From Halichondria panicea (Eukaryota > Porifera > Demospongiae > Suberitida > Halichondriidae): a stretch of 64,000 bases of DNA. This document shows, piece after piece, positions 15,573 to 54,768 of the stretch. The DNA is taken from contig NC_087379.1 of NCBI RefSeq assembly GCF_963675165.1, positions 620,001 through 684,000 of the forward strand, given 5' to 3'. Position numbers and translations under genes: made by a program. Under the pieces are notes generated by a model. That model was not told the DNA's origin. It was given only the letters and a program-made list of their open reading frames with translations, and did not search any database. Position 1 is the first letter of the stretch, and each line of letters opens with the position of its first letter.

Positions 15573-18482
15573 ATGGCTGAGAGGCCGAGTGCTGCTCAAG
15601 AAGCTCTCTCCAAAGTGGAGGACCAGCTGTCATGCCTAGTCTGTCTGGAGCCCTACACCAACCCTCGACTGCTCTCCTGTTTCCACGTCTACTGTCAACA
15701 TTGTCTCGAGGATATAGTTGCCCACAATCGACAAGGCCAGCTGGAATGCCCCAAGTGTCGCCGGCCCACCCCCCTACCCCCCACTGGTGTGAGTGGCCTC
15801 CAGGCTGCCTTCAATGTACACCATCTCTTTGACATTCAGGAAACACTCAAGAAGGTGAAAGAGCCTCAGAAATTGGCCTGTGAGAAATGTGTGAAAACGA
15901 CTCGTAAAGCCACCAGCTTTTGCCGACAATGCACCAAGTTCATCTGCGAGAAGTGTACTGATATGCACAAAGAATGGGAGGAGTTTGAAGGTCATGAAGT
16001 GGTTACTATCAAAAAAATTGAGGGAGATTTGATTCGCTTGGTCTCCCCAAAGAAGACGTCCCCTCGCTGCCCCAAACATGACGACAACATGAGACTTTAT
16101 TGTGAAACTTGTGGAGAGTTGATTTGCCGAGATTGTATTGTTCATATACACAAAGACCACAAGTACTGTGTGATTGCCGACACCTTTGAGAGCCACAAGA
16201 AAGAGATCCTGGACTCCCTGGGACCCGTTGAGAAACAGCTAGAGGCCACCGACACAGCTCTCGTCAATCTGGATGGACGTCATGCTGAAATTGTTGAACA
16301 CGGAGGAAAAGTTGCGACCAATATCCACTCGAAATTCGATGAACTCCATCAAGCTCTGTATGCTCGTGAGGGGGAGCTTATGGCCGAGTTGGAAAGCCAC
16401 ACCCAACAACAGCTCAAGAGCCTCTCTGCTCAGCGAGAGGAGGTGGAGATCCTCCAAACCCAACGTAGCAGCTGCCTGCATTTCGTGAGGGAGAGCATTC
16501 GTACCGGGTCTCCAGGAGACGTGCTCAAGATGAAGCAAGGTGTGGTGAAGCAAGTGAGAGAGCTGGTGGACACCTTTTACCCCAACACCCTAGAGCCTCG
16601 TGAGACAACCAACACCTGTTTTGTGCCTTCTGCTCAGCTAGTCAAAGATTGCAAGAAATACGGTGCCTTGTGTTGTGTTAATATTCCTCAAAAAGCAATC
16701 GCTGATCAAAAAGTAACTGCATATTGTCGATTCCTCTCCGCCAAAAATTCAACACCGCCAGAACTCTGGGCAGTTAAGGCCTGGGTCAGGCACTGATAAG
16801 ATTAATTTTATTCATTGCCTACATTTTATGTAGATCATGTAGATCATGTAGTGTTAATGAGATTCATAATGTTTATTAATGTTATTCATTGCACATGACG
16901 TCATAAGGTCAATGTATTTGCTTAGCTAGCTGCTAGAACTATTATAGATTATCTTTGGCAACAAATACGGCGGACTTAAACAAGGTAAGAGTAGCTGTTT
17001 AGGCCCTCAAAAGATAGATTATGTTGTTATGATTATGTTTCCTTGATGGGAAGTAAAAATGTCCAAAACTTTCTTAGCTATGCTAGCTTCTTTAGCTCTG
17101 ACAGCCACCCTAGAGGTAGGCTATTTTGTGTATCTCAAGAATACAATAACTCCTACTCTTCCCATCAAGGATACTAGTACCTAGCTATGAGATGTTCATC
17201 TAGCCTTGTTTTTGAAGATTGATCTTGGCATCTTCAACGCCGTATTTGCACTTCTCTTTCTGAAAGTGGCATGACGTCATCATCATTTATGGGACTAATT
17301 AGCATAATTGAATTAAGCTAATTAGTTTTTTGGAAAAAGAAAACATTGAGCTTCATTTTGGATCATTTTGATGCAGCATACACTGTATATTGCAAATAAT
17401 ACAGCAGTATGAACATAGTGTAAATTTTGGTGTTAAAATCTGGACCCGGGCCTTAAGTGCGCAGAGAAGCCAAACTTATCTCGAAAATAATTGACAAAGC
17501 CACAAAATGTGTTGTGAAGGAACGAGGGAAGGGAGAGTACGAGATCTCCTACCAGCCGACAGTGGGCGGGGCCAGCGAGCTGATTGTGAGAGTGGGTGGA
17601 GAGGAGGTGGCAGGAAGTCCATTCCCTGTGGCAGTTAAGACTCCGATCGATAAACTAGGAACTGTTATCAAGACTATCAATGATCCCAAGTCACCTTATG
17701 GAGTTGCACTCAACCTAGCTGGGGAGATAATTGTGGCTGAACAGGTTGCTGGTATTGTCTCGATATTTAGCCCCACAGGAGACAAGCTGCGAACATTAGA
17801 CACTCGAGGCACAGCTGTTGGGGAGATGAAGAATCCTCGTGGTGTGTCAGTGGACGGTGATGACAATATTCTGGTGGTGGACGCTGGTAATAGTCGACTG
17901 TTGAAGTTCTCACGTGGAGGAGACCTGATCCCAGCAGTTGGTAGTCATGACGATGGTGCTGGACAGTTTAACAATCCGATTGGTGTTTGTGTCAACAGTG
18001 TCAATGGGAAGGTGTACGTGGTTGAGTATGGTGCTGACTGTGTTCACATCTTCAACTCTGACCTCACCTTCTCCAGCCAGTTCGGCAGTAAAGGCAGTGG
18101 TAATGGACAGTTTAGTCTTCCCTGGGACGTTGCATCCGATCGTAGTGGTTGTGTGTATGTGGTTGATTATTATAATTGTCGAGTGCAAGTCTTCACACCC
18201 GATGGTGGCTATCTGAAGCAGTTTGGGAAGAGAGGCAGTGGAAATGGAGAACTTACCTACCCTGTCAGTATCTGTGTGGACAGTGATGATCTGGTGTATG
18301 TGGGGGAGCTTGGGAACGATCGTGTCTCAGTGTTCACGTGTGAGGGAGTGTTTCTCAAGTCGTTTGGATCAAAGGGATCTGGACCAGGACAGTTTGATTG
18401 TCCTTTTGGCATAGCAGTAGACCAGTGTGGTGTGGTGTATGTGTCTGATTATCGCAACAATAGAGTGCAAATATTATCCTAG
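15573..18482 (+). pseudogene. TRIM-NHL copy 1, split by a transposon insertion
   Basis: Putative E3 ubiquitin ligase of class VII TRIM type (TRIM2/3/71-like). Coding parts are 15573-16763 and 17465-18482, separated by a 701-bp TIR element that introduces a stop (TGA at 16794). Left part: RING (CLVCLEPY ... CPKCRR), B-box 1, B-box 2, coiled coil and the start of a filamin-like segment. Right part: the rest of the filamin repeat (KGEYEISYQPTVGG, GSPFPVAV) and six NHL blades. The two parts are in the same frame across the duplicated AGAA, so the gene was intact before the insertion. The linker (type A, KYGALCCVNIPQKAI) matches copy 4. Translation begins at the ATG after GTGTCA, not at the earlier GTG. 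Confidence 0.9.
16764..17464. mobile_element. 701-bp fold-back TIR element in TRIM copy 1
   Basis: Flanked by AGAA on both sides (16760-16763 and 17465-17468); the other TRIM copies have a single AGAA or equivalent there. The termini are imperfect inverted repeats (CTCTGGGCAGTTAAGGCCTG at the left; the right end reads CGGGCCTTAAGTGCGCAG). Internal pairs also invert: ACGTCAT at about 16898 and 17273, ATACGGCG against CGCCGTAT, CCTTGATGGGAAG against CTTCCCATCAAGG. The whole element could fold into one long hairpin. No transposase is encoded. Confidence 0.8.
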
Positions 18483-18654
18483 TTTATTTTTGTTATTAAA
18501 TTTGGTTGAGTTATTGTAACATTGCTAATGAATATTGAAATTGAAACCAGTGAATTCTTTGCCCATGCTGTCCCTGTGTACGTGTGTACTGAGTCTCTCC
18601 TGTTATAGTCGTACCTTTAGTATCGTACCTCACCCTACCCCCCCTCCGCTGCAG

Positions 18655-18865
18655 GGTCTCCATGGTGATATGGTGCTGTTAGCGGGCAGCAACACTGGTA
18701 TGGCCAAGGTCAAGGTCCGTCTGAGAGAGATGGCGTTACAGGGGGTGGAGCCTGATATCATCAAGCTACTAGTCATTGAGAACATGATGCTACAACCCTC
18801 CATGGATGTGTACATTCTGCCACTGCCACCCACGGAGGTCAAGGGTCACCGGACTGGACGCCATC
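18655..18865 (+). pseudogene. NUP210: NUP210 internal exon (GDMVLLAG), copy 1
   Basis: Acceptor CCGCTGCAG at 18654. Encodes GLHGDMVLLAGSNTGMAKVK ... VEPDIIKLLVIENMMLQPSMDVYILP, which matches the NUP210 region around residues 200-260. Relative to copy 4 about 110 bases are deleted after the CTGCCACTG stretch, fusing it to CCACCCACGGAGGTCAAGG. Open as far as shown, but isolated from upstream NUP210 exons by the TRIM gene. Confidence 0.75.
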
Positions 18866-18950
18866 CTACAAGACAACTAAATTATTGTGTGTGGGTGTGT
18901 GGATCATTGTCTCGTTGCTTAATAATACAGAGATACATTTGTCCTTGCAG

Positions 18951-19050
18951 AATCTTTTGTGCCGAGCCTGTTTCCATGACGATAAGACCAGTGATTGGTC
19001 ATATGCCAAACTGCCCTCTATTGACTCAGACCAAAAATCACAATATTCAG
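18951..19050 (+). other. unrecognised exon-like block, copy 1
   Basis: Acceptor TGTCCTTGCAG followed by AATCTTTTGTGCCGAGCCTG; one frame reads NLLCRACFHDD in the sister copies (32698, 43034). It is absent from unit 4. It may be a further diverged NUP210 exon; I cannot place it. Confidence 0.35.
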
Positions 19051-19949
19051 GTACACTCTAAAGTTCTAAGATTTTGTGATTTTGTCAAACAACAATACTT
19101 TCAATGTCTTAATTAATGCAGTTTTTCCTGTGCGGCCTTCCAAATGAAATAACACTGTATGGGGCGTTTGTCAACTTCACATCACTGCATTGGATGTGGT
19201 GATTGTCCAATCAGAATGCTCTACCCACCCCCCAGACCTCCTCACTACAACACAAGGACTCAGATAGTAAGTGTGTTGTTGAGGGGGACAACTTTTGCCA
19301 CTGATTTTAGCATACCATTACTTTGATAGAACTTCCTATAAGAGTTACATGTGTATACAGTGGTGGCTGTACGACTTTGAGAACCTGTAACTTGATATTG
19401 TGATTTTCTGAAACAAGGAGCTCCTTCATTATTTTGGTATGCTTAAATCATAGCTGGCCCAATTTCTGCTAATATTGGACAGTGCATGATAGCCCATGGT
19501 ATTTTTCGAGAAATTGTTGTGTGTTCAAAATGTGTGTGTTGATTATGCCATTTTAACAAGCTAGCTCACTGATATAGTTGACAAACACTCTCTGGGAACA
19601 AAAACCATTGTGTGTAGCTCTTATTTCAATATTTCACAAACTTCCTTGCTTTGGAATAAGTAGCGCTTATAATTTATTGCAGAATGCAGAGGCTGCAAAA
19701 ACGCATTGATTTTACGATGACTTCAATGTAAAAGGGTGTACCAGCTCAGCATAATTTTACTGCGGAAGCTATATCAGAAGTAGTTAGTGGGCGTTCGAAA
19801 AACAATCAAAATTCCAGGCTCTTACACGAATATAGGACTATTCTATTGATGTGAGTGTGCTAGCTAGCTGTTGAGACCCTGTGTAGGGTACGAGCTGGGC
19901 TTGTAAATGGGTTGTATTCTGCTTGTAATACATAGATATAAGATAGATG
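19051..19949. other. non-coding stretch, unit 1
   Basis: Contains the block ending ACACAAGGACTCAGATA|GTAAGT (about 19230-19270), present in all units and possibly a degenerate exon end. The rest is AT-rich sequence with dispersed-repeat similarity. No gene seen. Confidence 0.4.
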
Positions 19950-20025
19950 TGGCTTAGTGGTTAGGGTGGTGGCTTAGTAGATCACGCAACGACGTGGATT
20001 TGATTCCCTTCTAAAGACTTTTCTT
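19945..20025 (+). repeat. tRNA-derived SINE-like block
   Basis: TGGCTTAGTGG (19950-19960) fits a pol III A box and GATTTGATTCC (19998-20007 region) fits a B box, about 35 bases apart as in tRNAs. The block is flanked by unrelated sequence and lacks tRNA stem complementarity, so it looks like a SINE head or tRNA pseudogene. It occurs only in unit 1. Confidence 0.45.
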
Positions 20026-20088
20026 CATTTTTTTGCATTTCAGTGAGTAGTTTCCCTAAGTTTTGAATGCATTATACTCTTGGAAGTA

Positions 20089-20150
20089 CATAATCAAGTT
20101 GGGTCGTCGCCCGGTTTCCGTTTCGGAAATTGGGCAACAACCCAACTTGC
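20089..20150. repeat. short palindromic element
   Basis: CAAGTTGGGTCGTCGCCCGG and TTGGGCAACAACCCAACTTG face each other as imperfect inverted repeats around a GTTTCCGTTTCGGAAA core. This is a 55-60 bp hairpin, either a minimal MITE or a transposon end. Confidence 0.55.
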
Positions 20151-21490
20151 GCCAATAATATCATTACTAATAGGTAGATTAATTAGGTTCTGTCTTTGTT
20201 TAATTCACATTTTGTAGAATCGAAGTGGCCAAGATATTCCACTATACTAAAATATGGGGCATATCCAGTATACAGGCTGGCTCACTAAGACTAAAATGGT
20301 AGCCGTGGATACCAACAATACGGCTCAGTTGATGAAACAGAGGTACCGTACATTGTACAGTATGTATATTGCCAGGAGTACATGAAGGGGAGTAAGCAAC
20401 TACTATACACACCATATGCATTCATTGCTGTCTCTCTGTCACAAAACCAGGAGACAAAACTTATAGTAATGTAAACTGTTTTGTTTGACATAACCATGTG
20501 TGCATGGCTAAGGCAGCCAGGCTACAATCAGAAATTCTACCAAGTGCTTGCACAGTACATGTAATTAACCACAGTGTTTGAGTGCAGCCACTTGAGATGT
20601 GGGCATTTTACACACATGTATGACAGAGTCAGACTACAACACGTTTGTATGGGCTGTATACCGTAAACTATAGCGCGAAATTTTCGAGGCACTTATATTT
20701 CGTGGATTGGCCTCTAAAAACCATTTCGTTGCACAATGTTCGCGGAATGACTGCTTACCGGAAGCCACGCCTTTAAATATTTGCACGATAGCAGGTACCC
20801 TTCATGTACTCCTGATATTGCCCATTTGTACTGTATAGTCCTCACCTGTTAGACCTTTGTCACGGTGTTTGGACGAAAAATTGGCAAATTAGCAATATAG
20901 CAGTGCATATACCCTCGACCCATAATTATAATAATTATTATGCTAATGGCATTACTTGGTTGACCCATAGGTATGAGACATAATAATAGTGGCAGCTATA
21001 GGTGACCCCAGAGGAGGTCCCACAACCGTGCATGCGCCTAGCATTAATTTTTGTTGCATCAGCATTTAATAAAACTTGCTTTTACAGATCGATGCTGCAT
21101 TGAGAGAGTTAGAGCTCCTGTTACTAAAACTATACAAGACAGAGGACTAAGTCTAAGAAGAGTGCTACACGTATCTCTAAAGGCAAGTTTTATGAAAATG
21201 CTGATTCAGCAAATATTAATGTTAGGCGTACGGTTGTCGGACCTCCTCTGCACACACACACACAAACACACTACCGTAACCTCGCTTGCGCATGCGCACC
21301 GAGGCATAATTATAGTTGGCCCAATTTCAGTTCAATACCGTGAACTACAGTCCTGGTCTTTTTCTAATTTTGTGTAGCATTCAAAATGTGGGGGTTGATT
21401 GCGCCATTTTATAGAGCTTCTTCTTAGGTTTCATAAAACCATAAAACTATTGAAATTGCATACATACAAAATGCACACATACACCTACAC
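20151..21490. other. unit-1-specific non-coding stretch
   Basis: About 1.3 kb with no recognisable gene. It includes two copies of a phrase on variable-strand context (GTAGCCGTGGATACCAA at about 20300, also at 56515 in unit 4) and a fragment of the CCGTATAGCG MITE family near 20660. Confidence 0.4.
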
Positions 21491-21492
21491 AC

Positions 21493-21629
<137 letters not shown>

Positions 21630-21630
21630 T

Positions 21631-21703
21631 GCAAGTGACCCCCAAACACCTCGTCATTCCCTGGGACCCCCAAACAGAGTTCAAATACCAGCACCAATTG
21701 AAT
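21631..21703 (+). pseudogene. NUP210: NUP210 exon (VTPKHLVI), copy 1, 5'-truncated
   Basis: Only QVTPKHLVIPWDPQTEFKYQHQLN-coding sequence remains, ending AAT|GTGAGT. The acceptor and the DTGEVHDLPTLITKHQ part are lost to the CA repeat. Confidence 0.75.
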
Positions 21704-22109
21704 GTGAGTGTGCTAGCTAGCTTGTTAGAGCTAAACCTGTGTAGGGTACCAGCTACATAGGCTTGTACATGGCTTGTAATAATAATTACCGTATAGCGAG
21801 TAATTTACGTGAGGTGGAAATGTTCGTATTTTTCGTATTGTAGAGCATCATACGAAAATGAAAACTGCTCTACCGCTATAGGTTCAACGTCACTATCCTG
21901 AGCTATACCAATATTTAGAATACAAAGTGCACGTAAGAACAGTTCATACGAACATTTGCATCAAAGAAAAGTGTAGTAGACAGTTGTATAATTCCGATTG
22001 TAACAGAATGAGCTCATAAAGAAGATTATCCATGCAACTCCCACGCACACTCCATTCTGATCTGTTTAGAATAAATCTCATATTTGGCCGACATTGATGA
22101 ATTAGCATG

Positions 22110-22400
22110 CAGGGGAGGGGGTAGTTGAACATCTTTCAATAGCCATAACTTTAGTTCCGTTGATCTAATGTCAAAACTCTCACGATTTTTCTGAAAGCTT
22201 AGAAAGAGACCTTTCAAATGATGTTTTTCGATCTAAAATTTTTTTGCAGCCAGAATTTGTTGTTTTTCGGAAGTAATGAACTTTGATGTCTCTTTCTAAG
22301 CTCACACAAAATCAGAAAATCGTTGAAATAATTATGATCCACTGAATTCAAGTTTTGGCAACGTAAACATGCACTCCTCAGACCATTGATTAAACTGATG
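22110..22400. repeat. fold-back repeat relative
   Basis: CTGAAAGCTTAGAAAGAGACC (22193 on) and GTCTCTTTCTAAGCTCACAC (22289 on) are the two arms of the same family as 12235-12605. Repeated at 56690-56920 in unit 4. Confidence 0.65.
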
Positions 22401-22537
22401 GGGTTGTTGAACGGCCCTAACTTTAGTGTTATTGATCCAGTGAAAAGTCCTAGAGCAAATTTTAGGATGAGGGGGGGCTGGTGTTTAATAATTATGTTTA
22501 AAAGCTCCCTCTAATTTACCCCTGTGATTAACCCCCC

Positions 22538-22568
<31 letters not shown>

Positions 22569-22600
22569 CCACACCCACACACACACGCACGCACACACGG

Positions 22601-23518: not shown

Positions 23519-23597
23519 TAGAGATAATGAGATTTAGATAAAATAGCATGAAGATTGTGTATTATTATTTCCTGAACCAATTTTCCCTCCCCCACAG

Positions 23598-25151: not shown

Positions 25152-25204
25152 GTAAGCAGTTTTTGTGAGTGCTGACATTAATTAATCTTCTGTTTTCTAG
25201 GGGA

Positions 25205-29982: not shown

Positions 29983-32202
29983 ATGGCTGAGAGGCCAAGT
30001 GCTGCTCAAGAAGCTCTCTCCAAAGTGGAGGACCAGCTGTCATGCCTAGTCTGTCTGGAGCCCTACACCAACCCTCGACTGCTCTCCTGTTTCCACGTCT
30101 ACTGTCAACATTGTCTCGAGGATATAGTTGCCCACAATCGACAAGGCCAGCTGGAATGCCCCAAGTGTCGCCGGCCCACCCCCCTACCCCCCACTGGTGT
30201 GAGTGGCCTCCAGGCTGCCTTCAATATACACCATCTCTTTGACATCCAGGAAACACTCAAGAAGGTGAAAGAGCCTCAGAAATTGGCCTGTGAGAAATGT
30301 GTGAAGACGACTCGTAAAGCCACCAGCTTTTGCCGACAATGCACCAAGTTCATCTGCGATCTGTGTACGAACATGCACAAAGAATACGAGGAGTTTGAAG
30401 GTCATGAAGTCGTTACTATCGAAAAAGTGGAAGGAGATTTGATTCGCTTGGTCTCCCCAAAGAAAACGTCCCCTCTCTGCTCCAAACATGACGAGAAAAT
30501 GAAACTTTATTGCGAAACTTGTGGGGAGTTGATTTGTCGAGATTGCCTCGTTCATATACACAAAGACCACAAGTACTGTGTGATTGCCGACACCTTTGAG
30601 AGCCACAAGAAAGAGATCCTGGACTCCCTGGGACCCGTTGAGAAACAGCTAGAGGCCACCGACACAACTCTCGTCAATCTGGATGGACAACATGCCGAAA
30701 TAGTTGAACACGGAGGAAAACTTGCGATCACTATCCACTCGAAATTCGATGAACTCCATCAAGTTCTGTATGCTCGTGAGGGGGAGCTGATGGCGGAGTT
30801 GGAAGGCCACACCCAACAACAGCTCAAGAGCCTCTCTGCTCAGCGAGAGGAGGTGGAGATCCTCCAAACCCAACGTAGCAGCTGCCTGCATTTCGTGAGG
30901 GAGAGCATTCGTACCGGGTCTCCAGGAGACGTGCTCAAAATGAAGCAAGGTGTGGTGAAGCAAGTGAGAGAGCTGGTGGAAACCTTTGACCCCAACACCC
31001 TAGAGCCTCGTGAGACAACCAACACCTGTTTTGTGCCTTCTGCTCAGCTAGTCAAAGATTGCAAAGAATTTGGAGCCATTGGCACACCATCAGTAACTGT
31101 CACTCCTACAAAAAGACTCGACAAAACCAGAGTACAAGGATCCACTAGTCTTCGATTTTCAAACACAAATCCATCCTCAAGCATTAAAGCCGAACTTATA
31201 GCAAAATCAACGAATCAGACGACAAACTGTGTTGTGAAGGAACGAGGGAAGGGAGAGTACGAGATCTCCTACCAGCCAACAGTGGGCGGGGCCAGCGAGC
31301 TGATCGTGAGAGTGGGTGGAGAGGAGGTGGCAGGAAGTCCATTCCCTGTGGCAGTCAAGACTCCGATCGATAAACTAGGAACTGTTATCAAAACTATGAA
31401 TGATCTCAAGAAACCTTGGGGAGTGGCACTCAACCAAGCTGAGGAGATAATTGTGGCTGAACGGGATGCTGGTATTGTCTCAATATTTAGCCCCACAGGA
31501 GACAAGCTGCGAACATTAGACACTCGAGGCACAGCTGTTGGGGAGATGAAGAATCCTCGTGGTGTGGCAGTGGACGGTGATGACAATATTCTGGTGGTGG
31601 ACTCTGGTAATCATCGACTGTTGAAGTTCTCACGTGGAGGAGACCTGATAGCAGTAGTAGGTAGTCATGGCGATGGTCCTGGACAGTTTAACAATCCGAT
31701 TCGTGTTTGTGTCAACAGTGTCAATGGGAAGGTGTATGTGGTTGATCATGGTGTTCACTGTGTTCATATCTTCAACTCTGACCTCACCTTCTCCAGCAAG
31801 TTCGGCAGTAAAGGCAGTGGTAATGGACAGTTTTACTATCCCTGGGACGTTGCATCCGATCGTAGTGGTTGTATGTATGTGGTTGATAATGCTAATCATC
31901 GAGTGCAAGTCTTCTCACCCGATGGTGGCTATCTGAGGCAGTTTGGGAAGGAAGGCAGTGGAAATGGAGAACTTAACTTCCCTGTCAGCATCTGTGTGCA
32001 CAGTGATGACCTGGTGTATGTGGGGGAGCGTGGGAACCATCGTGTCTCAGTGCTCACGTGTGAGGGAGTGTTTCTTAAGTCATTTGGATCATATGGATCA
32101 GGACCAGGACAGTTCGATCGGCCTCTTGGCATAGCAGTAAACCAGTGTGGTGTGGTGTATGTGTCTGATGATGACAACAATAGAGTGCAAATATTTTCCT
32201 AG
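29983..32202 (+). CDS. TRIM-NHL protein, copy 2 (intact)
   Basis: 739 residues in one exon. RING C3HC4 ligands C21, C24, C36, H38, C41, C44, C59, C62; B-box 1 at about 103-141 (CEKC ... CRQC ... CDLC); B-box 2 at about 166-199 (C..H ... C..C ... H..H); coiled coil about 205-330; filamin-type repeat about 364-458 with GSPFPV; six NHL repeats 463-739. Class VII TRIM proteins use RING/B-box for ubiquitin ligation and the NHL propeller to bind RNA or proteins. The linker is type B (EFGAIGTPSVTVTPTKRLDK), shared with copy 3. NHL variable motifs include VDSGNHR, VDHGVHC, VDNANHR, GERGNHR and SDDDNNR. The start is the ATG at 29983; an in-frame GTG six bases earlier is not needed. Confidence 0.95.
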   Translation: MAERPSAAQEALSKVEDQLSCLVCLEPYTNPRLLSCFHVYCQHCLEDIVAHNRQGQLECPKCRRPTPLPPTGVSGLQAAFNIHHLFDIQETLKKVKEPQKLACEKCVKTTRKATSFCRQCTKFICDLCTNMHKEYEEFEGHEVVTIEKVEGDLIRLVSPKKTSPLCSKHDEKMKLYCETCGELICRDCLVHIHKDHKYCVIADTFESHKKEILDSLGPVEKQLEATDTTLVNLDGQHAEIVEHGGKLAITIHSKFDELHQVLYAREGELMAELEGHTQQQLKSLSAQREEVEILQTQRSSCLHFVRESIRTGSPGDVLKMKQGVVKQVRELVETFDPNTLEPRETTNTCFVPSAQLVKDCKEFGAIGTPSVTVTPTKRLDKTRVQGSTSLRFSNTNPSSSIKAELIAKSTNQTTNCVVKERGKGEYEISYQPTVGGASELIVRVGGEEVAGSPFPVAVKTPIDKLGTVIKTMNDLKKPWGVALNQAEEIIVAERDAGIVSIFSPTGDKLRTLDTRGTAVGEMKNPRGVAVDGDDNILVVDSGNHRLLKFSRGGDLIAVVGSHGDGPGQFNNPIRVCVNSVNGKVYVVDHGVHCVHIFNSDLTFSSKFGSKGSGNGQFYYPWDVASDRSGCMYVVDNANHRVQVFSPDGGYLRQFGKEGSGNGELNFPVSICVHSDDLVYVGERGNHRVSVLTCEGVFLKSFGSYGSGPGQFDRPLGIAVNQCGVVYVSDDDNNRVQIFS

Positions 32203-35157: not shown

Positions 35158-35159
35158 TA

Positions 35160-40321: not shown

Positions 40322-42565
40322 ATGGCTGAGAGGCCGAGTGCTGCTCAAGAAGCTCTCTCCAAAGTGGAGGACCAACTGTCATGCCTAGTCTGTCTGAAGC
40401 CCTACACCAACCCTCGACTGCTCTCCTGTTTCCACGTCTACTGTCAACATTGTCTCGAGGATATAGTTGCCCACAATCGACAAGGCCAGCTGGAATGCCC
40501 CAAGTGTCGCCGGCCCACCCCCCTACCCCCCACTGGTGTGAGTGGCCTCCAGGCTGCCTTCAATATACACCATCTCTTTGACATCCAAGAAACACTCAAG
40601 AAGGTTAAAGAGCCTCAGAAATTGGCTTGTGAGAAATGCTCCAAAACGACTCGTAAAGCCACCAGCTTTTGCCGACAATGCACCAAGTTCATCTGCGATC
40701 TGTGTACGAACATACACAAAGAATACGAAGAGTTCGAAGGTCATGAAGTCGTTACTATCGAAAAAGTTGAGGGTGATTTGATTCGCTTGGTCTCCCCAAA
40801 GAAGACGTCCTCTCGCTGCCCTAAACACGACGACATAATGAGACTTTATTGCGAAACTTGTGGAGAAGTGATTTGTATCAATTGCACCGTCCAAATACAC
40901 AAAGACCACAAGTACTGTGTGATTGCCGACACCTTTGAGAGCCACAAGAAAGAGATCCTGGACTCCCTAGGACCCGTTGAGAAACAGCTAGAGGCCACCG
41001 ACACAGCTCTCGTCAATCTGGAAGGACGACATGCCGAAATTATTGAACACGGAGGAAAAATTGCGACCAATGTCCACTCGAAATTCGATGAGCTCCATCA
41101 AGCTCTGTATGCTCTTGAGGGGGAGCTTATGGCGGAGTTGGAAGGCCACACCCAACAACAGCTCAAGAGCCTCTCTGCTCAGCGAGAGGAGGTGGAGATC
41201 CTCCAAACCCAACGTAGCAGCTGCCTGCATTTTGTGAGGGAGATCATTCGTACCGGGTCTCCAGGAGACGTGCTCAAGATGAAGCAAGGTGTGGTGAAGC
41301 AAGTGAGAGAGCTGGTGGACACCTTTGACCCCAACACCCTAGAGCCTCGTGAGACAACCAACACCTGTTTTGTGCCTTCTGCTCAGCTAGTCAAAGATTG
41401 CAAAGAATTTGGAGCCATCGGTATACCATCAGTAACTGTCACCCCTACAAAAAGACTCGACAAAACCAGAGTACAAGGATCCACTAGTCTTCGATTTTCA
41501 AACACAAATCATCCACTGATCCAAATTCCATCCTTGAACATTAAAGCCGAACTTATATCGAAATCAACGAATCAGACGACAAACTGTGTTGTGAAGGAAC
41601 GAGGGAAGGGAGAGTACGAGATCTCCTACCAGCCAACAGTGGGCGGGGCCAGCGAGCTGATCGTGAGAGTGGGTGGAGAGGAGGTGGCAGGAAGTCCATT
41701 CCCTGTAGCAGTCAAGACTCCGATCGATAAACTAGGAACTGTTATCAAGACTATCAATGATCTCAAGAAACCTCATGGAGTGGCACTCAACCAAGCTAGG
41801 GAGATAATTGTGCCTGAACAGGGTGCTGGTATTGTCTCGATATTTAGCCCCACAGGAGACAAGCTGCGAACATTAGACACTCGAGGCACAGCTGTTGGGA
41901 AGATGAAGAATCCTTGTGGTGTGGCAGTGGACGGTGATGACAATATTCTGGTGGTGGACGGTGGTAATTATCGACTGTTGAAGTTCTCACGTGGAGGAGA
42001 CATGATAGCAGCAGTTGGTAGTCATGGCGATGGTCCAGGACAGTTTAACTATCCGAATTGTGTTTGTGTCAACAGTGTCAATGGGAAGGTGTATACGTAT
42101 GTGGTTGATAACGGTGCTCACTGTGTTCATATTTTCAACTCTGACCTCACCTTCTCCAGCAAGTTCGGCAGTAAAGGCAGTGGTAATGGACAGTTTAATC
42201 GTCCCTGGGACGTTGCATCCGATCGTAGTGGTTGTGTGTATGTGGCTGATGCTGGTAATACTCGAGTGCAAGTCTTCACACCCGATGGTGGCTATCTGAG
42301 GCAGTTTGGGAAGAAAGGCGGTGGAAATGGAGAACTTTACTACCCTGCCTGCATCTGTGTGGACTGTGATGATCTGGTGTATGTGGCGGAGTATGGGAAC
42401 AAGCGTGTCTCAGTGTTCACGTATGAGGGAGTGTTTCTCAAGTCGTTTGTATCACCTGGATCTGGACCAGGACAGTTCAACAGTCCTTATGGAATAGCAG
42501 TAGACCAGTGTGGTGTGGTGTATGTGTGTGATAATGGCAACAATAGAGTGCAAATATTTTCCTAG
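40322..42565 (+). CDS. TRIM-NHL protein, copy 3 (intact)
   Basis: 747 residues, same architecture as copy 2. Differences: LKPYTNP in the RING where the others have LEPYTNP; B-box 2 of the CINCTVQIHKDH type shared with copy 4; type B linker with an eight-residue longer stretch (HPLIQIPSLN region); and a two-residue insertion in NHL blade 3 (KVYTYVVD). NHL variable motifs are VDGGNYR, VDNGAHC, ADAGNTR, AEYGNKR and CDNGNNR. All RING and B-box ligands are present. Every other statement on function is family inference. Confidence 0.95.
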   Translation: MAERPSAAQEALSKVEDQLSCLVCLKPYTNPRLLSCFHVYCQHCLEDIVAHNRQGQLECPKCRRPTPLPPTGVSGLQAAFNIHHLFDIQETLKKVKEPQKLACEKCSKTTRKATSFCRQCTKFICDLCTNIHKEYEEFEGHEVVTIEKVEGDLIRLVSPKKTSSRCPKHDDIMRLYCETCGEVICINCTVQIHKDHKYCVIADTFESHKKEILDSLGPVEKQLEATDTALVNLEGRHAEIIEHGGKIATNVHSKFDELHQALYALEGELMAELEGHTQQQLKSLSAQREEVEILQTQRSSCLHFVREIIRTGSPGDVLKMKQGVVKQVRELVDTFDPNTLEPRETTNTCFVPSAQLVKDCKEFGAIGIPSVTVTPTKRLDKTRVQGSTSLRFSNTNHPLIQIPSLNIKAELISKSTNQTTNCVVKERGKGEYEISYQPTVGGASELIVRVGGEEVAGSPFPVAVKTPIDKLGTVIKTINDLKKPHGVALNQAREIIVPEQGAGIVSIFSPTGDKLRTLDTRGTAVGKMKNPCGVAVDGDDNILVVDGGNYRLLKFSRGGDMIAAVGSHGDGPGQFNYPNCVCVNSVNGKVYTYVVDNGAHCVHIFNSDLTFSSKFGSKGSGNGQFNRPWDVASDRSGCVYVADAGNTRVQVFTPDGGYLRQFGKKGGGNGELYYPACICVDCDDLVYVAEYGNKRVSVFTYEGVFLKSFVSPGSGPGQFNSPYGIAVDQCGVVYVCDNGNNRVQIFS

Positions 42566-43130: not shown

Positions 43131-43890
43131 TAGTCTATATATATACGATTTTGTCAAACAACTATATATTTTTTCGATGTCTTAATTGTGTTTGTCTGCA
43201 GTTTCCTGTGTGGCCTTTGAACCAAAATTGAAATAATTAACGCTGTATGGGGCGTTTGAAAACTTCACATCGCTGCAATGGACGTGGTGATCGTCCAATC
43301 AGAATGCTCTACCCACCCCCCGACCTCCTCACTACAACACAAGGACTTAGATAGTAAGTGTGTCTTTGAGGGGGACAACTTTTGCCACTGATTTTAGCAT
43401 ACCATTACTTTGATAGAACTTCCTATAAGAGTTACATGTGTACAGTGGTGGCTGTACGACTTTGAGAGCCCGTAACTTGAATTTTGGTAGTCTGATTTCA
43501 ATTCTGAAAGTTAAATGGAGTTCATTCATTTGGCCATAATAGTTGGCCAGATTTCAGCTAAATACCATGGACTACAGTCCTGGTCTTTTTCTGACATTTT
43601 GTTGCTCATAATAAGGGGGTTGATTGTGCTATTTTATAGAGTATTAGCTTTCATAAAACCACAAAACCATTGAAATTGGACCACCTAAACATTTCTAGTA
43701 TCATAATTAAGCTAGGTAGTGTGTGGAATTGTGTCTGACTGCAATGTGTATACTAGCAGGGTTTCATCTAGTGGGGGGGGGGGCTGGGATGAACCTTCCT
43801 CCCCAAAATACTCATCTTCCCCCCAAATGTGTGTATAATAATGACATCATCACATTAGTACTGTCTATGATGTGCAATATGTAACTATAG
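43131..43890. other. non-coding stretch, unit 3
   Basis: Homologous to 32800-33442. Includes a poly-G tract (43780) and fold-back family fragments. No gene. Confidence 0.4.
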
Positions 43891-43905
43891 ATCTTCTGTG
43901 ATGCA

Positions 43906-44245
43906 CTAAGAGTGGGCGTAGCTCGTGGAGGGGTAAGGCTGGCAGTGGGCGTAGCTGGTGGAGGGGTAGGGCTGGCAGTGGGCGTAGCTGGTGGAGGGGT
44001 AGGGCTGGCAATGGGCGTAGCTCGTGGAGGGGTAAGGCTGGCAGTGGGCGTAGCTGGTGGAGGGGTAAGGCTGGCAATGGGCGTAGCTGGTGGAGGGGTA
44101 GGGCTGGCAGTGGGCGTAGCTGGTGGAGGGGTAAGGCTGGCAGTGGGCGTAGCTGGTGGAGGGGTAAGGCTGGCAGTGGGCGTAGCTCGTGGAGGGGTAA
44201 GGCTGGCAGTGGGCGTAGCTGGTGGAGGGGTAGGGCTGGCAGATG
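43906..44245. repeat. 33-bp minisatellite, about 10 copies
   Basis: Unit GTGGGCGTAGCTGGTGGAGG + GGTAAGGCTGGCA; variants alternate CTCGTGG/CTGGTGG, TAAGG/TAGGG and GCAGT/GCAAT. As 33 is a multiple of three and the unit lacks stops, several frames stay open on both strands. Present only in unit 3. Confidence 0.95.
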
Positions 44246-44454
44246 AGAGACATGTAATAAGGGGTGTGGTCAACAAATGTGGGAGTGGCCAAACATTATG
44301 CGGTATATGCGTAAACCTTCCCCCCTAACTTTTAATCCTGACTAGTACCCAGTACACTGTATACATAATTATGTGTTATTATACTCACATCATGCATACT
44401 ACTATCTACTCCCCCCACACACACACACACACACACACACGCAGCGATAATATT

Positions 44455-45243: not shown

Positions 45244-45244
45244 G

Positions 45245-47338: not shown

Positions 47339-47392
47339 TTTGAGAGACGGAAGTGCTGACATTAATTAATCTTCTGTTTTCTAGGGGAAGGC

Positions 47393-47765
47393 GTGAGTGT
47401 TTTTTCAGAATCAGGCCTGTTTTCAGAGCTATCTTTTAGCTGCCATAACTTGAATTCCGTGGATACAATTTCAATGTATTTTCTGAAAGCTTAGAAAGAG
47501 ACTTGTCATCAAAGTTTATATTTGAGAGATAAAAGTATTTGCCAATTTGGCCATACCATGAATAATAGCCCATGGTCCAAGGCAGAAAATTACAAATTGC
47601 CCCCAACAAAATTTCGGATCGAAACACATCATTTGAAAGGTCTCTTTCTAAGCTTTCAGAAAATCATAATATTTTTGACATTGGATCAACGGTATTAAAG
47701 TAATGGCTGTTGAAAAATCAGGTTTGTTTTTAGAGCTATCTTTTAGAGGCCATAACTTGTGTTAG
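47393..47765. repeat. fold-back repeat (unit 4)
   Basis: Same family; the left arm has lost part of AAATGGTGT (AGAGACTTGTCATC). Confidence 0.75.
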
Positions 47766-47900
47766 GAACGTCCTATTTAACAAGCTCAAAGACGCATTCT
47801 GTAGCTCTGAGAAAGCACTATTGTATACAATTAAAGTGTGTTAAAACCGCTAATTGCTCGCAGTGCCAAAGCTCACTAATTTGTGTGTCCTATGCTGTAG

Positions 47901-48365
47901 ATGTGGGAACACGGAACCATCGTCGGTTGTGTGCAGTGTATTATAGTCGTACCCCCGGGTTTGAAGTGATCCATGGACTACTGGACCGTGTCATGCAGCT
48001 GCTGGAGGTGTCCTTCACCAAAGATGGCAGTGGATACTTCCTCAAGGCAGCTGAAGGTGAGGGTTGCATAAGCACAGCTGTGTATGTGTGTTAGGGATTT
48101 GTGAAGGAACTACTGTATATGCATTCAGTCCAGTTTGTTGGGAATTAGTGGCCTTGAAGTTTTTTGAAGTGTATGTGTTGGAAAGATTATTTTGTCAGAA
48201 AATTAATTCCTACAACTACCTCACTGCCCACACTTTTGCACTACTTGTGTTTACCGCCCCCTCCCCTGCACACACACTTCACAGACTTTACCTATTTCCC
48301 GGGCCGTTGTGCAGAGGTGTGTGTACGTGGGAAGGTGATCAGGAAACTGGGCGTGCTCCATCCTG
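47901..48365 (+). pseudogene. FARSB: FARSB C-terminal fragment, unit 4
   Basis: Exons 47901-48056 and 48285-48365, open with good splice sites; the second reads DFTYFPGRCAEVCVRGKVIR. Confidence 0.85.
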
Positions 48366-48421
48366 GTGTGTCTGTTGTGCATTTCTAGTGTGTGTGAGAC
48401 AGGGAGGTGTGTCTGGTGCAG

Positions 48422-48489
48422 CTGTTCTCACGGCCTCCTCCAACCAGTACCTGCCCTCCGTACTCTCCAGGGAGAACCTATCTCCTCAG
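48422..48489 (+). other. unrecognised exon U, unit 4
   Basis: Open AVLTASSNQYLPSVLSRENL frame, donor CAG|GTTAGT. Confidence 0.5.
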
Positions 48490-49147
48490 GTTAGTGTGTG
48501 TTCATCATGACCTCCTTGACAGTATGTACCCAGGTGTGTGTTTAGGGTCAATACTGCAAGGTCATGTACTGTACATAATTATGTCATGTACATATAATTA
48601 TAGCCTGGATCCCAGGGTAGGCCGGTGAACGAGGCTAGTACATATAATCCTTTTGATTGTAGTTAGGGTGCTTTAGTAACCATTAAAGATCTAACGTACT
48701 CTTCTTGAGGGGAGGGGTAGTTAATTATTTTAAACAGCCATAACTTTAGTACCGTTGATCCAATGTCATTATTTGCTTAAAGCGACTTTCAAATGATGTG
48801 CTTGGAAACATTTGAAAGGTATATCACACAGAATATCAGAAAATCGTTGAAATTGAATGCCCAAAGATCGTACTATTGTAGTCAGAAGAGCAAAATGTAA
48901 CCCACGTGATAACGTTAGAATTTTTCTCTCCATTTTGAGGATGTTCTTTCTTTGCAGCTAATTTTAATACCATGACGATATTGTGTTTAGGCTCATGTGA
49001 TTCCCATATCTGGGTATCATCTTACGTTTAGGTGTTTTGTGGCTTGTAGCTACATGTACAATCAGTGTAGCCTTTGTTCTGACAATGTGGATTTGCTAAT
49101 TACTTGTGTGTGTGTGTGTTTGGAAAGGGGGTATGTAACCTTGGTTG
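48490..49147. other. non-coding stretch, unit 4
   Basis: Matches 26292-26820 of unit 2; fold-back fragments near 48735-48850. No gene. Confidence 0.4.
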
Positions 49148-49508
49148 CAGGGGCGTAGCCAGGATTTTGAGGATGGGGTGCTACCACGACGAAAGAGGGC
49201 GCGGAGCGCCGAAATTTGGTTGACCGGAAGCCACACCTCTTATTAATGACGTAATAATTAATAGTTGGGCTTAGCCCAATCTTCTATTTGCATAGAGAAG
49301 CCTATTTTACTACGAAAGAGAACTAGTCTATAGATCTAAGCCAGAATGTTTAAAGACCAATTCGTTTTGCTTGCCTACTAGCTAGCTAACTGCAGCAAGA
49401 TCTGGAAGAGAAGGGGGTGCTCAGCTAGACAATCAGGTACACTTTGTGTACAATCTCAGATAGAAGGGAGTGCTTGAGCACCATGAGCCCCCCCTGTCTA
49501 CGCCCCTG
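49148..49508. mobile_element. 361-bp hAT-like non-autonomous element
   Basis: Ends CAGGGGCGTAG and CTACGCCCCTG are perfect inverted repeats. It is flanked by GGTTG (49143-49147, 49509-49513). Unit 2 keeps the empty site (AACCTTGGTTGGATTTGCC at 26809). The CAGGGGCGTAGCCAGG terminus is typical of hAT-type MITEs; the direct repeat I can show is 5 bases, shorter than the usual 8. No coding capacity. Confidence 0.85.
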
Positions 49509-49794
49509 GGTTGGATTTGCCATTAGTCCATAATGAAAAGTCTATTTGTGTTGAGTTTCACCTTCATAAAGTTAACTTTGTCATACTTCACTGAAATTCA
49601 AAGTTTCATATACCATTGGATTCCTTGTTAAAAAGCGCTTCTATCTATATGCTGTAGAGCTGGTAAGCTCCAACCAGCTAAAAGTTAGCATTTTCCATGC
49701 AGAAGTCCCAGGCATACTTGTCCACCACGTAAAGCATAAATGAAGCCATAATTGACCACATAACTTCCGGGGTCGAACTCAATGCAAATAGACT

Positions 49795-51030
49795 TTAGTT
49801 TTGTAGGTAATCTGTGTAAGAGCGTGCGAGTGGTTGTAGTACGTGATCCATGAAGTGGGCAGAAGGGGAGAGCATGGAATTAGAATGGGAAATTATTGGT
49901 TGTACCGGGGTAGTGTCGTACATATTTTGTGGATTTTCGGTATTCCATAGAACCATAGATTGAAGAGTTAGAGGGATAGGAAGAGGAGTGGTGCACGTGA
50001 TTATTTTACATTGAATCTGCAGTGGAGCCTCGAAAATTATCCGCGTTACGAGGCTATTAAGCACATTTTTGCCGGGTAACTCCCAAAGCTGTGTTTCCTC
50101 GAGACATCATCTCTTTCAGCAATTTATAACACGCCTAGTCCATGAGCCACGTGTAGTACTTGCTAATGACTGACCACACCCAGTAAAAAGAACAAAGTTA
50201 TATATGTTCCCAAGGCAGTTTTAGAGCTATTGGAACATATAACGTGTAAGCGTGCTGGTTATGACTACTACAATAGGTATAGACCTTGAAATATAAGTGA
50301 GTTGCACGGACTAAGCACAGTTACTTGTAGTTTATTATGCACTGAGTGTAGAAATAGATATTGTTGTGATGGCCTCGATTAAACCGCAGCGTAGCGCGGA
50401 TGTTACTCGAGATACCAACCGTTTCCTATCCCTCTAACTCTTCAATCTATGATAGAACTTGGGAGGTTGTGTATTTTGGGGGTTGGGAAGAGGTTTTTGT
50501 GTATTGCGTTTAGTTGTGGTGAAAAATGTCTGGTGGTTTCTTGCAATTGATGTTCTATATCTTGAGTTGGTGTTGTTGTGTTAATCTGTACGTACTTTGG
50601 TCACAGAGTACAAGAGAGCATTTTTGTATGTAGTCGTCCGTATCTATGCCAAGATTTGTGTCTGCTGGTTTTATGGTGACTTTGGTTCTTTGTTGTTTAA
50701 GTTTGGCGAGGGCATATCGTGTGTTTGTTCAGGTTGGATGTTGTTTGGTTAAATATGAGTGATAGTTTTTCGTCCAATTTGTTTGGTCAATGTACGCTTC
50801 TAATTTATAAAGTGGGCATTCTGAATATACTTGAGTTTAAGTTACATAATTCGATTTCGGTAAATTTCATTCGTCTGTTGATTGTTTTGTCTCTGTCTCG
50901 CTGGGTATCTCCTGGTGCGTTGTTGAGCTTGTATATATTGCTCATCCCTTCAACACTGGATTATTGTCATTAGCAAGAAAAGTTTTGATACGTAAATATC
51001 TCGACCACAAGAGAAGGCCGGTGGTACCAT
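49795..51030 (-). mobile_element. Penelope-like remnant (unit 4), reverse-transcriptase part
   Basis: Minus-strand reading between 49935 and 49795 gives PIISHSNSMLSPSAHFMDHV-LQPLARSYTDYLQN, which fits the RT motif with R/QPI..G..S......L....LQP and Y. The element continues at 50455-51025 and is interrupted by a 498-bp TIR element. Frames are broken. Confidence 0.65.
49954..50451. mobile_element. 498-bp TIR element
   Basis: The 29-base ends are perfect inverted repeats (CATAGATTGAAGAGTTAGAG at the left, CTCTAACTCTTCAATCTATG at the right). ATAGAAC is duplicated on both sides (49947-49953, 50452-50458). It sits inside the PLE remnant; unit 2 has the uninterrupted sequence at about 27260. A decayed relative is at 10184-10660. 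No ORF of note. Confidence 0.9.
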
Positions 51031-51264
51031 TTGAAGGGTCTCTTTCTAAGCTTTCAGAAAAACATAAAATATTTGATTTTCGATCCACAGAATTCAAGTT
51101 ATGGCAGCTGAAAGATTCCCAAAATCAGATTAAACGGAGGGGGGGGTGGGTGTTTTTTAACTGCCATAACTTCAGTAAAGTTGATCCAATGTCAAATATT
51201 TTATGATTTTCTGAAAGCTTAGAAAAATACCTTTCAAATGGTGTGTTTCCACACTACCATAGTA

Positions 51265-51925
51265 GTAAAAAAATAAATGATTCTGGCCTGGTGAGTGGGC
51301 CTCGACATTTACTAAAACAATAAGTTTGTTTCTGGCCTAGTGAGTGACCAGGTAGTAAAAAAATAAAATAAAAGTTTGATTCTGGCCTGGTGAGTGGGCC
51401 TCGACATGTAGTAAAAAAAATAAGTTTGTTTCTGGCCTGGTGAGTGACCAGGTAGTAAAAAAATAAAAATAAAAGTTTGTTTCTGGCCTAGTGAGTGACC
51501 AGGTAGTAAAAAAATAAAAATAAAAGTTTGTTTCTGGCCTGTTGAGTGGGCCTCGACATTTACTAAAAAAATAAGTTTGATTCTGGCCTGGTGAGTGGGC
51601 CTCGACATGTAGTAAAAAAATAAGTTTGTTTCTGGCCTATAGTGAGTGACCAGGTAGTATAAAAATAAAAGTTTGATTCTGGCCTGGTGAGTGGGCCTCG
51701 ACATGTAGTAAAAAAATAAGTTTGTTTCTGGCCTGTTGAGTGGGCCTCGACATTTACTAAAAAAATAAGTTTGATTCTGGCCTGGTGAGTGGGCCTCGAC
51801 ATGTAGTAAAAAAAATAAGTTTGTTTCTGGCCTAGTGAGTGACCAGGTAGTAAAAAAATAAAATAAAAAGTTTGATTCTGGCCTGGTGAGTGGGCCTCGA
51901 CATTTACTAAAAAAATAAGTTTGGT
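51265..51925. repeat. minisatellite of two alternating unit types
   Basis: About 13 units built on TTTGATTCTGGCCTGGTGAG followed by TGGGCCTCGACATGTAGTAA (about 49 bp) or by TGACCAGGTAGTAAAAAAAT (about 50-60 bp), ending in A-rich AAAAATAAG. Only in unit 4, just upstream of the GTGAGTGGGTGGGGCAATGG block that precedes every TRIM gene. It generates spurious minus-strand ORFs. Confidence 0.9.
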
Positions 51926-52309
51926 GTGAGTGGGTGGGGCAATGGAGTCCACTCAACCATGCATCTCATGGACCCAATTAAGAGTGTTCTAACATAATTA
52001 TACACATAGAGATTATCATCCGTATGTATGTATGTATGTATGCTGATTTTGTATTATGATGAATTTGAATACATTTTGTGATCTTGTGTGTGTGCATTGG
52101 GTGCATGATGTGAGATCAATTTCAACATGGTATGGAGTGTTGTTAACATGGAGGGTGACATTGTATGAGTGTGTGTTGTCTGTATCTCAGGCAACTGGTC
52201 AGAGGACTAGCAATAGAGTGGGTGTAGAATGTTGCTAGGCAATATAGCCACAAGTATGTGTGTACCATTATGGTCTAACCATAATCAATACTTTGATCCT
52301 ATGAATATT

Positions 52310-52413
52310 GTTGTGCATGCATCACCTGACCTGTCACTGTGAGAGCTGTGAGTCTATAGCTGCTTTTGCCAAGCTTTGAGCTTTTCTTTCTACTACTAAA
52401 CACTTTTCTAAAG
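52310..52413 (+). promoter_or_regulatory. leader exon of TRIM-NHL copy 4
   Basis: Conserved block ending CTAAAG|GTGAGC, acceptor at 52547. Confidence 0.6.
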
Positions 52414-52557
52414 GTGAGCATAATTATTGTACATGTTCTGATACATTCGTTTGTAGTTTTCGTTGCTTGAATTCTTTGCTATTATTATTATAAAGCTTGA
52501 CACGCCCCCTTTTTAGCGTATTGTTATCCTTTTCTCTCCCCCCTCAGTTTTGTGTCA

Positions 52558-54768
52558 ATGGCTGAGAGGCCGAGTGCTGCTCAAGAAGCTCTCTCCAAAG
52601 TGGAGGACCAGCTGTCATGCCTAGTCTGTCTGGAGCCCTACACCAACCCTCGACTGCTCTCCTGTTTCCACGTCTACTGTCAACATTGTCTCGAGGATAT
52701 AGTTGCCCACAATCGACAAGGCCAGCTGGAATGCCCCAAGTGTCGCCGGCCCACCCCCCTACCCCCCACTGGTGTGAGTGGCCTCCAGGCTGCCTTCAAT
52801 GTACACCATCTTTTTGACATCCAGGAAACACTCAAGAAGATTAAAGAGCCTCAGAAATTAGCCTGTGAGAAATGCTCCAAAACGACTCGTAAAGCCACCA
52901 GCTTTTGCCGACAATGCACCAAGTTCATCTGCGAGAAGTGTACCGATATGCACAAAGAGTGGGAGGAGTTCGAAGGTCACGAAGTTGTCACTATCGAAAA
53001 AGTGGAAGGGGATTTAATTCGTCTTGTTTCTCCGAATAAGGTGACCCCTCGCTGCCCCAAACACAACAAAAGCCTCAAGTTGTACTGTGAACCTTGTGGA
53101 GAGTTGATCTGTATCCATTGCACCGTCCAAATACACAAAGACCACAAGTACTGTGTGATTGCCGACACCTTTGAGAGCCACATGAAAAATATCTTGGACT
53201 CCCTGGGACCCGTTGAGAAACAGCTAGAGGCCACCGACACAGCTCTCGTCAATCTGGATGGACGACATGCCGAAATTGTTGAACACAGAGGAAAAATTGC
53301 GACCAATATTCACTCGAAATTTGATGAGATTCGTCGAGCTCTTGATGCTCGTGAGGGGGAGCTTATGGCCGAGTTGGAAGGCCACACCCAACAACAGCTC
53401 AAGAGCCTCTCTGCTCAGCGAGAGGAGGTGGAGATCCTCCAAACCCAACGTAGCAGCTGCCTGCATTTCGTGAGGGAGAGCATTCGTACAGGGTCTCCAG
53501 GAGACGTGCTCAAGATGAAGCAAGGTGTGGTGAAGCAAGTGAGAGAGCTGGTGGACACCTTTGACCCCAACACCCTAGAGCCTCGTGAGACAACCAACAC
53601 CTTGTTTGTGCCTTCTGCTCAGCTAGTTAAAGAGTGCAAGAAGTTCGGTGTCTTATATTGTGATATTGTTATTCCTCAAAAAGCAATTGTTGGACAAAAA
53701 GTAACTGCATATTATCGATTCCTCTGTCCCCTAAATTCAGCACCACCAGAAGCCAAACTTATCTCCAAAATAACTGACAAAACCACAAACTGTGTTGTGA
53801 AGGAACGAGGGAAGGGAGAGTACGAGATCTCCTACCAGCCGACAGTGAGCGGGGCCAGCGAGCTGATTGTGAGTGTGGGTGGAGAGGAGGTGGCAGGAAG
53901 TCCATTCCCTGTGGCAGTCAAGACTCCGATCGATAAACTAGGAACTGTTATCAAGACTATCAATGATCTCAGGAAACCTCGAAGTGTGGCACTCAACCAA
54001 GCTGGGGAGATAATTGTGGCTGAACTTGATGCTGGTATTGTCTCGATATTTAGCCCCACAGGAGACAAGCTGCGAACATTAGACACTCGAGGCACAGCTG
54101 TTGGGGAGATGAAGAAACCTCGTGGTGTGGCAGTGGACGGTGATGACAATATTCTGGTGGTGGACGCTGTTAATCATCGACTGTTAAAGTTCTCACGTGG
54201 AGGAGACCTGATGGCAGCAGTTGGTAGTCATGGCAATGGTCCTGGACAGTTGAACGATCCTTATGGTGTTTGTGTCAACAGTGTCAATGGGAAGGTGTAT
54301 GTGGTTGATCGTCTAGCTCACTGTGTTCACATCTTCAACTCTGACCTCACCTTCTCCACCAAGTTCGGCAGTGAAGGCAGTGGTAATGGACAGTTTAAAT
54401 ATCCCTGGGACGTTGCATCCGATCGTAGTGGTTGTGTGTATGAGGTTGATCATGGTAATTATCGAGTGCAAGTCTTCACACCCGATGGTGGCTATCTGAG
54501 GCAGTTTGGGGCGAAGAGAGGCAGTGGAAATGGAGAACTTGACAGGCCTGCCAGCATCTGTGTGGACAGTGATGATCTGGTGTATGTGGGGGAGAGTGGG
54601 AACAAGCGTGTCTCAGTGTTCACGTGTGAGGGAGTGTTTCTCAAGTCGTTTGGATCGTATGGATCTGGACCAGGACAGTTCGACAGTCCTTATGGCATAG
54701 CAGTAGACCAGTGTGGTGTGGTGTATGTGTCTGATTGTAGCAACAATAGAGTGCAAATATTTTCCTAG
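52558..54768 (+). CDS. TRIM-NHL protein, copy 4 (intact)
   Basis: 736 residues, same architecture as copy 2. The linker is type A (KFGVLYCDIVIPQKAIVGQK), shared with copy 1; B-box 1 is of the EKCTDMHKEWEEF type shared with copy 1; B-box 2 (CIHCTVQIHKDH) resembles copy 3. It has a unique SPNKVTPRCPKHNKSLKLYC stretch and coiled-coil changes (DEIRRALDARE). NHL variable motifs are VDAVNHR, VDRLAHC, VDHGNYR, GESGNKR and SDCSNNR. RING and B-box metal ligands are intact. Confidence 0.95.
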   Translation: MAERPSAAQEALSKVEDQLSCLVCLEPYTNPRLLSCFHVYCQHCLEDIVAHNRQGQLECPKCRRPTPLPPTGVSGLQAAFNVHHLFDIQETLKKIKEPQKLACEKCSKTTRKATSFCRQCTKFICEKCTDMHKEWEEFEGHEVVTIEKVEGDLIRLVSPNKVTPRCPKHNKSLKLYCEPCGELICIHCTVQIHKDHKYCVIADTFESHMKNILDSLGPVEKQLEATDTALVNLDGRHAEIVEHRGKIATNIHSKFDEIRRALDAREGELMAELEGHTQQQLKSLSAQREEVEILQTQRSSCLHFVRESIRTGSPGDVLKMKQGVVKQVRELVDTFDPNTLEPRETTNTLFVPSAQLVKECKKFGVLYCDIVIPQKAIVGQKVTAYYRFLCPLNSAPPEAKLISKITDKTTNCVVKERGKGEYEISYQPTVSGASELIVSVGGEEVAGSPFPVAVKTPIDKLGTVIKTINDLRKPRSVALNQAGEIIVAELDAGIVSIFSPTGDKLRTLDTRGTAVGEMKKPRGVAVDGDDNILVVDAVNHRLLKFSRGGDLMAAVGSHGNGPGQLNDPYGVCVNSVNGKVYVVDRLAHCVHIFNSDLTFSTKFGSEGSGNGQFKYPWDVASDRSGCVYEVDHGNYRVQVFTPDGGYLRQFGAKRGSGNGELDRPASICVDSDDLVYVGESGNKRVSVFTCEGVFLKSFGSYGSGPGQFDSPYGIAVDQCGVVYVSDCSNNRVQIFS

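Follow-up and report, generated by a model that had tools for sequence, protein, structure and literature searches.

What recurs, and why, at the few positions of each NHL blade where four otherwise closely similar TRIM-NHL genes of a sponge differ from one another? The window analysed here is a stretch of 64 kb of Halichondria panicea DNA (C3:620001-684000), taken from C3, a chromosome-scale contig of 8,483,533 bases in a genome of 131 Mb and 39 contigs. Four TRIM-NHL genes of what we call family A lie inside it, all on the + strand. Genes 2, 3 and 4 (L001, L005 and L018) are single open frames encoding 739, 747 and 736 aa at positions 29983-32202, 40322-42565 and 52558-54768 of the window, respectively, with the NHL part of gene 2 at about 31369-32199. 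An earlier note on this DNA, which reported four genes, was correct as to their presence, but gene 1 (15573-18482) is interrupted. Between its linker and filamin parts lies an insert of roughly 0.7 kb that carries an in-frame stop (16764-17466, +, with approximate ends placed by eye against the paralogs) and separates RING and B-boxes from NHL. The RING/B-box/coiled-coil part (15573-16796, +) ends at the stop inside the insert, and the filamin/NHL part (17457-18482, +) is an open frame with its own set of hypervariable residues. No flanking terminal inverted repeats of at least 14 bases were found at this insert.

The hypervariable BC loop with the motif D-xx-N-x-R reads VDYYNCR in gene 1 (18162-18182), VDNANHR in blade 4 of gene 2 (31882-31902), ADAGNTR in gene 3 (42245-42265) and VDHGNYR in gene 4 (54445-54465), all on the + strand. 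These sequences and coordinates are as the earlier note had quoted them, and the motifs that it listed for the remaining blades are likewise present in the gene translations. Its description of a near-identical frame also holds, but not the total silent identity that it claimed for the flanking codons, as scaffold pS among the four copies is about 0.06.

The variation seen in the window is real and extends well past it, to a family with dozens of copies in the genome. For family A there are at least 24 full-length copies with 75-100% identity, of which 23 lie on C3, one of them containing a stop, and one lies on C8, and at least 6 further partial copies; these counts are lower bounds, since 60 of 330 first-look candidates were scored. 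The C3 copies form three blocks, with a single strand used within each block. Family B, which is about 38% identical to family A, comprises 30 complete or almost complete copies, of which 28 are free of stops; 29 of the 30 are on C3, mostly at 5.9-6.3 Mb. Three short family A copies on C3, L027 (229-234 kb), L029 (1.914-1.918 Mb) and L030 (688-692 kb), keep NHL repeats and, as judged by eye, have no RING or B-boxes; the frame of L030 is also broken, and all three are possibly decoys or decaying copies. Other open reading frames were seen near family members. One at 18535-19116, downstream of gene 1, gives a match to NUP210 Ig-like domain 2 (PF22969) that is barely above cut-off, and by eye similar ones occur downstream of L027 and L030. 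A protein kinase gene (Pkinase) lies at 8406-9587, with a similar kinase-tail frame, again by eye, downstream of L029, and short-repeat frames are found between the window genes at 43812-44276 and 51312-51956.

The full family A protein has the order RING, two B-boxes, predicted coiled coil, filamin domain and six-bladed NHL propeller. In Pfam, the RING was recognised as PF13445, above cut-off in all four of the N-terminal sequences given, the B-boxes as two stretches of PF00643 in each of the four, and both the filamin domain and NHL (PF01436) were recognised as well. In the AlphaFold model, a long helix of moderate confidence (residues 201-311) occupies the putative coiled-coil region, and the NHL propeller is modelled confidently (pLDDT about 95). 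A Foldseek comparison of the model with TRIM71 gave a TMt of 0.91, and the best neighbours among solved structures include LIN41/TRIM71 (also with RNA), Thin, TRIM2/3 and Brat. The linker between coiled coil and filamin domain (alignment columns 361-433) comes in two or three modular versions across the paralogs.

Codon comparisons were performed on the 22 intact C3 genes of family A; L002, which has one stop, and the partial copies L025-L030 were dropped, and L024, on C8, was aligned and excluded from counts. A column was called hot where 45% or more of the gene pairs have different amino acids, a threshold of our own choosing. By this definition 34 of 275 scored NHL columns are hot among the 22 paralogs, with one site showing 11 different residues, and on average two paralogs share their residue at 28% of hot sites versus 92% of scaffold sites. 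The pN of hot codons exceeds scaffold pS by a factor of 6.5 (bootstrap 5.7-7.5; about 9.3 when corrected) and does so in 231 of 231 gene pairs; with pS taken from the hot codons themselves, the factor is 2.4. By either silent measure, therefore, hot pN stands above pS, and the scaffold does not share the variation (pN/pS 0.56 for the 22 genes). When sites were chosen in one half of the data and measured in the other, hot pN was 0.398, compared with a pS of 0.068 elsewhere. The four window copies follow suit: at sites defined by the other 19 paralogs, the 37 hot codons have pN 0.392 and pS 0.151, while the 240 scaffold codons have pN 0.039 and pS 0.056. The region from RING to coiled coil has a pN/pS of 0.32. 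Variation is very high in the linker as well (pN 0.31, pS 0.44), though with modular forms and high silent change, unlike the hot-site pattern. Each blade carries 20-22 distinct hot-residue sets among the 22 genes, and Tyr rises from 2% to 15% at the face that these residues form.

A comparable but weaker effect is seen in family B, for which 23 of about 30 copies entered the codon set. Here pN is 0.372 at the 37 hot columns of 270, against a scaffold pS of 0.147, a ratio of about 2.5 that is above 1 in all 253 pairs; the split-half values are 0.324 and 0.148. Relative to the hot codons' own pS the ratio falls to 1.6, and to 1.1 at the sites defined in family A, where pN is 0.308 and scaffold pS 0.145. 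The hot columns of the two families largely correspond, with 23 in common (34 in A and 37 in B, over 269 columns; odds ratio 33). Tyr at the face rises in family B only from 3% to 7%, so that marked enrichment is confined to family A. We also compared three protein-only sets, drawn by identity band from 120 listed proteins, which we infer to come from other sponges. The 34 most variable positions coincide with those of family A in 26 cases for a set of 26 proteins (about 66-70% identity), in 22 for a set of 30 (about 47-51% identity) and in 22 for a set of 45 family-B-like proteins.

In a four-stranded blade, the DA and BC loops lie on the same face of the propeller. When the residues of the model are assigned by strand order, the BC loops have 13 hot residues out of 24, the DA loops 12 out of 65, strand A 8 out of 37 (located where the strand starts) and strand B 1 out of 31, while none of the 53 residues in the AB and CD loops is hot. 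Strand topology of the AlphaFold model, rather than its coordinates, thus places all 34 hot sites on one predicted face, and not scattered over the propeller. Propeller loops are often tolerant of change, and one might propose that the hot loops are merely positions under relaxed constraint. The AB and CD loops are equally loops, yet hold no hot residue. Relaxation also should not lift pN over pS, whereas hot pN exceeds scaffold pS by factors of 6.5 in family A and 2.5 in family B; we rule this explanation out for practical purposes. Overall, the earlier note's claim of diversifying selection on one recognition face, held on a constant frame, is strongly supported, and none of the three outcomes that it had named as refuting was observed.

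A more serious challenge is that the codons are rewritten by mutation. Silent differences between gene pairs that share a residue are hardly raised at hot codons (0.064 hot versus 0.050 cold in family A, 0.103 versus 0.103 in family B), which favours selection over local hypermutation. Differences at 4-fold sites are 0.063 versus 0.059 in A and 0.153 versus 0.114 in B, while Nei-Gojobori pS is 0.178 at hot codons versus 0.067 in the scaffold for A, and 0.238 versus 0.147 for B; we provisionally ascribe the latter rise mainly to path counting in codons with multiple changes. Untargeted local hypermutation is disfavoured by the nearly flat same-residue silent change, but the Nei-Gojobori values and the 4-fold sites of family B are raised. 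An adenine-only mutator is also disfavoured, as the major base at changed positions, used here as a proxy for the template base of a putative diversity-generating retroelement, may be A, G, T or C.

Targeted hypermutation, retroelement- or deaminase-like, could still rewrite the loop codons with selection as a secondary force. The raised Nei-Gojobori pS and family B 4-fold values would suit such a process, as would the near absence of linkage from one hot site to the next (mean r 0.05 for sites 1-2 codons apart) and the concentration of changes at codon positions 1 and 2. Nonsynonymous steps at the third position of hot codons occur at 0.4-0.5 times the rate per opportunity of the first and second positions, which fits selection for radical changes or could alternatively be read as targeting. 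Besides the flat same-residue silent change and the mixed major bases, targeted hypermutation must contend with one A-ending hot site whose third A is retained in 22 of 22 genes, and with the behaviour of copies on other contigs. We compared 27 other-contig proteins among P0001-P0040 with 29 reference sequences. Ten of the 27 agree with a reference gene at all 34 hot sites, and two of these ten do so although they differ elsewhere; the other 17 match at 11-21 of the 34, with no intermediates. This all-or-little matching argues for stable germline genes, and we regard targeted hypermutation as very improbable. Of the 17 poorly matching proteins, ten reach a scaffold identity of 90% or more with one or another reference copy. 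Judged from these sequences, gene sets seem to differ either between haplotypes or between individuals.

Diversifying selection remains the preferred account of the face, and the arrangement of the loci bears on how the genes arose. Comparisons with four query loci show that loci share multi-kb units. Correlations between the pairwise distances of different segments are mostly weak (-0.07 to 0.31), that of linker with filamin (0.48) being the exception. Permutation tests gave a recombination signal for the N-terminal part (0 of 200) and none for the NHL scaffold, where 190 of 200 permutations lay at the observed value or below it. Five of the 22 genes, close paralogs selected for having alignable units, show differences of 1.2-1.3% in the flanks and of 37% of bases in the hot codons; NHL 4-fold sites in the same five differ by 4.7%, so part of this contrast reflects older NHL ancestry. 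Homogenisation of blades within a gene was rejected, since blades 2-6 average 54% DNA identity; together with an NHL length of 270-281 aa, this leaves no sign of change in repeat number or of blade homogenisation.

What the face might bind can be approached through LIN41/TRIM71 and Brat, which have the NHL propeller and the same face register in common with the Halichondria family, the filamin domain also being found in LIN41. In the parts of the LIN41 study drawn on here, 14 RNA contacts are given in the NHL domain, where one positively charged pocket takes a stem-loop (PMC5908797). On this account, all 14 contacts fall at P-2, P-1, P+1, D+1 or D+2 of the blade motifs. These five classes plus N+1 give 36 positions, 28 of which are hot in family A, and the other 6 of the 34 hot sites are near by. 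With 28 of 36 register positions hypervariable between paralogs, the conserved basic RNA-contact residues of LIN41 type are absent, and the single charged pocket of LIN41 is in this respect a contrast to the Halichondria faces. Net charge at the 36 positions averages +2.2 in family A (-1 to +7) versus +5 in LIN41, and whole-NHL charge averages -5.9 (-11 to +2) versus +1.

An RNA-recognition repertoire, in which each propeller would recognise an RNA of its own, whether viral, transposon-derived or a host mRNA, and would recruit decay or ubiquitination in the manner of LIN41 and Brat, would agree with the coincidence of 28 of the 34 hot sites with the RNA-contact register and with the presence of RNA-bound LIN41/TRIM71 among the best structural neighbours. 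The faces of family A are not uniformly basic, as the register charges show. Charge is weak evidence against RNA, however, because whole-NHL charge in family B (mean +1.1, -4 to +5) is about neutral and near that of LIN41. We read the modest face charge of family A, together with its raised Tyr, as favouring protein or mixed ligands, and consider an RNA repertoire rather unlikely, though it deserves to be kept in view.

The family is probably a germline-encoded set of RING E3 ligases whose ligand faces have been diversified, produced by tandem duplication, recombination and diversifying selection. Under this model, tandem duplication of multi-kb units and recombination between paralogs would keep the frame alike, while selection for new specificities would drive change at the face. 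Each paralog would recognise its own ligand through the face, with a protein or some other surface being more likely than a single shared RNA, and this contact would bring the RING to the target for ubiquitination. As far as sequence can indicate function, the role would most likely be recognition of microbes or non-self, and the immune, anti-transposon or self/non-self use proposed in the earlier note is plausible. A more specific and tentative version, which we hold to be possible but doubtful, is that the E3 set is haplotype-specific, its variable propellers (Tyr-rich and antibody-like at the face in family A) acting as intracellular or allorecognition detectors set per individual. The duplicates might instead have divided ordinary E3 substrates among themselves, in development or gamete interaction, with no part in defence or allorecognition. 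TRIM-NHL proteins are developmental in other animals, according to the portion of PMC9070667 used here. The copy number, a face that is unique to each gene (every blade shows 20-22 distinct hot sets across the 22 genes) and the existence of related copies that have no equivalent in the reference copies compared all go beyond what fixed substrates would require; we think such subfunctionalisation unlikely.

Among the open papers listed, judged by their titles and the beginnings of their abstracts, none deals with hypervariable or expanded sponge TRIM-NHL genes. The sections of PMC8242945, PMC12465263 and PMC12345144 that were covered hold nothing on such genes beyond NHL in one legend and general mentions of ubiquitin ligases. 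In A. aerophoba, a LIN41-annotated ubiquitin ligase is reported in the covered part of PMC11229196 to be among the genes that are lower with symbionts than with seawater microbes. The closest known kind, as far as the consulted part of PMC4986451 describes it, is that of the Podospora NWD/HNWD proteins HET-E, HET-D and HET-R, in which diversifying selection acts on a few positions per propeller repeat, at the interaction surface. Diversifying selection on a propeller interaction face is common to both systems (in family A, and more weakly in B), but on that partial description the Halichondria proteins differ in having a RING E3 front, in that no NACHT domain was found in the Pfam scan of family proteins, in the lack of repeat homogenisation and in a near-fixed NHL length. 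PRDM9 likewise varies at the contact positions of its repeats on a frame similar at silent sites, but is one gene with tandem near-identical fingers, whereas the sponge has numerous paralogs whose blades are fixed. A diversified ligand face on a repeat scaffold is also presented by lamprey VLR and plant NLR-LRR proteins; Halichondria is set apart by the RING E3 architecture and perhaps by a lack of somatic assembly, of which the genome sequence gave no hint.

The molecular means by which sponges distinguish microbes or grafts is an open question. The family described here offers a defined group of candidate receptors that can be tested and whose putative ligand face has been mapped, and suggests the TRIM-NHL propeller as a diversified scaffold, with variation falling largely where LIN41 contacts RNA.
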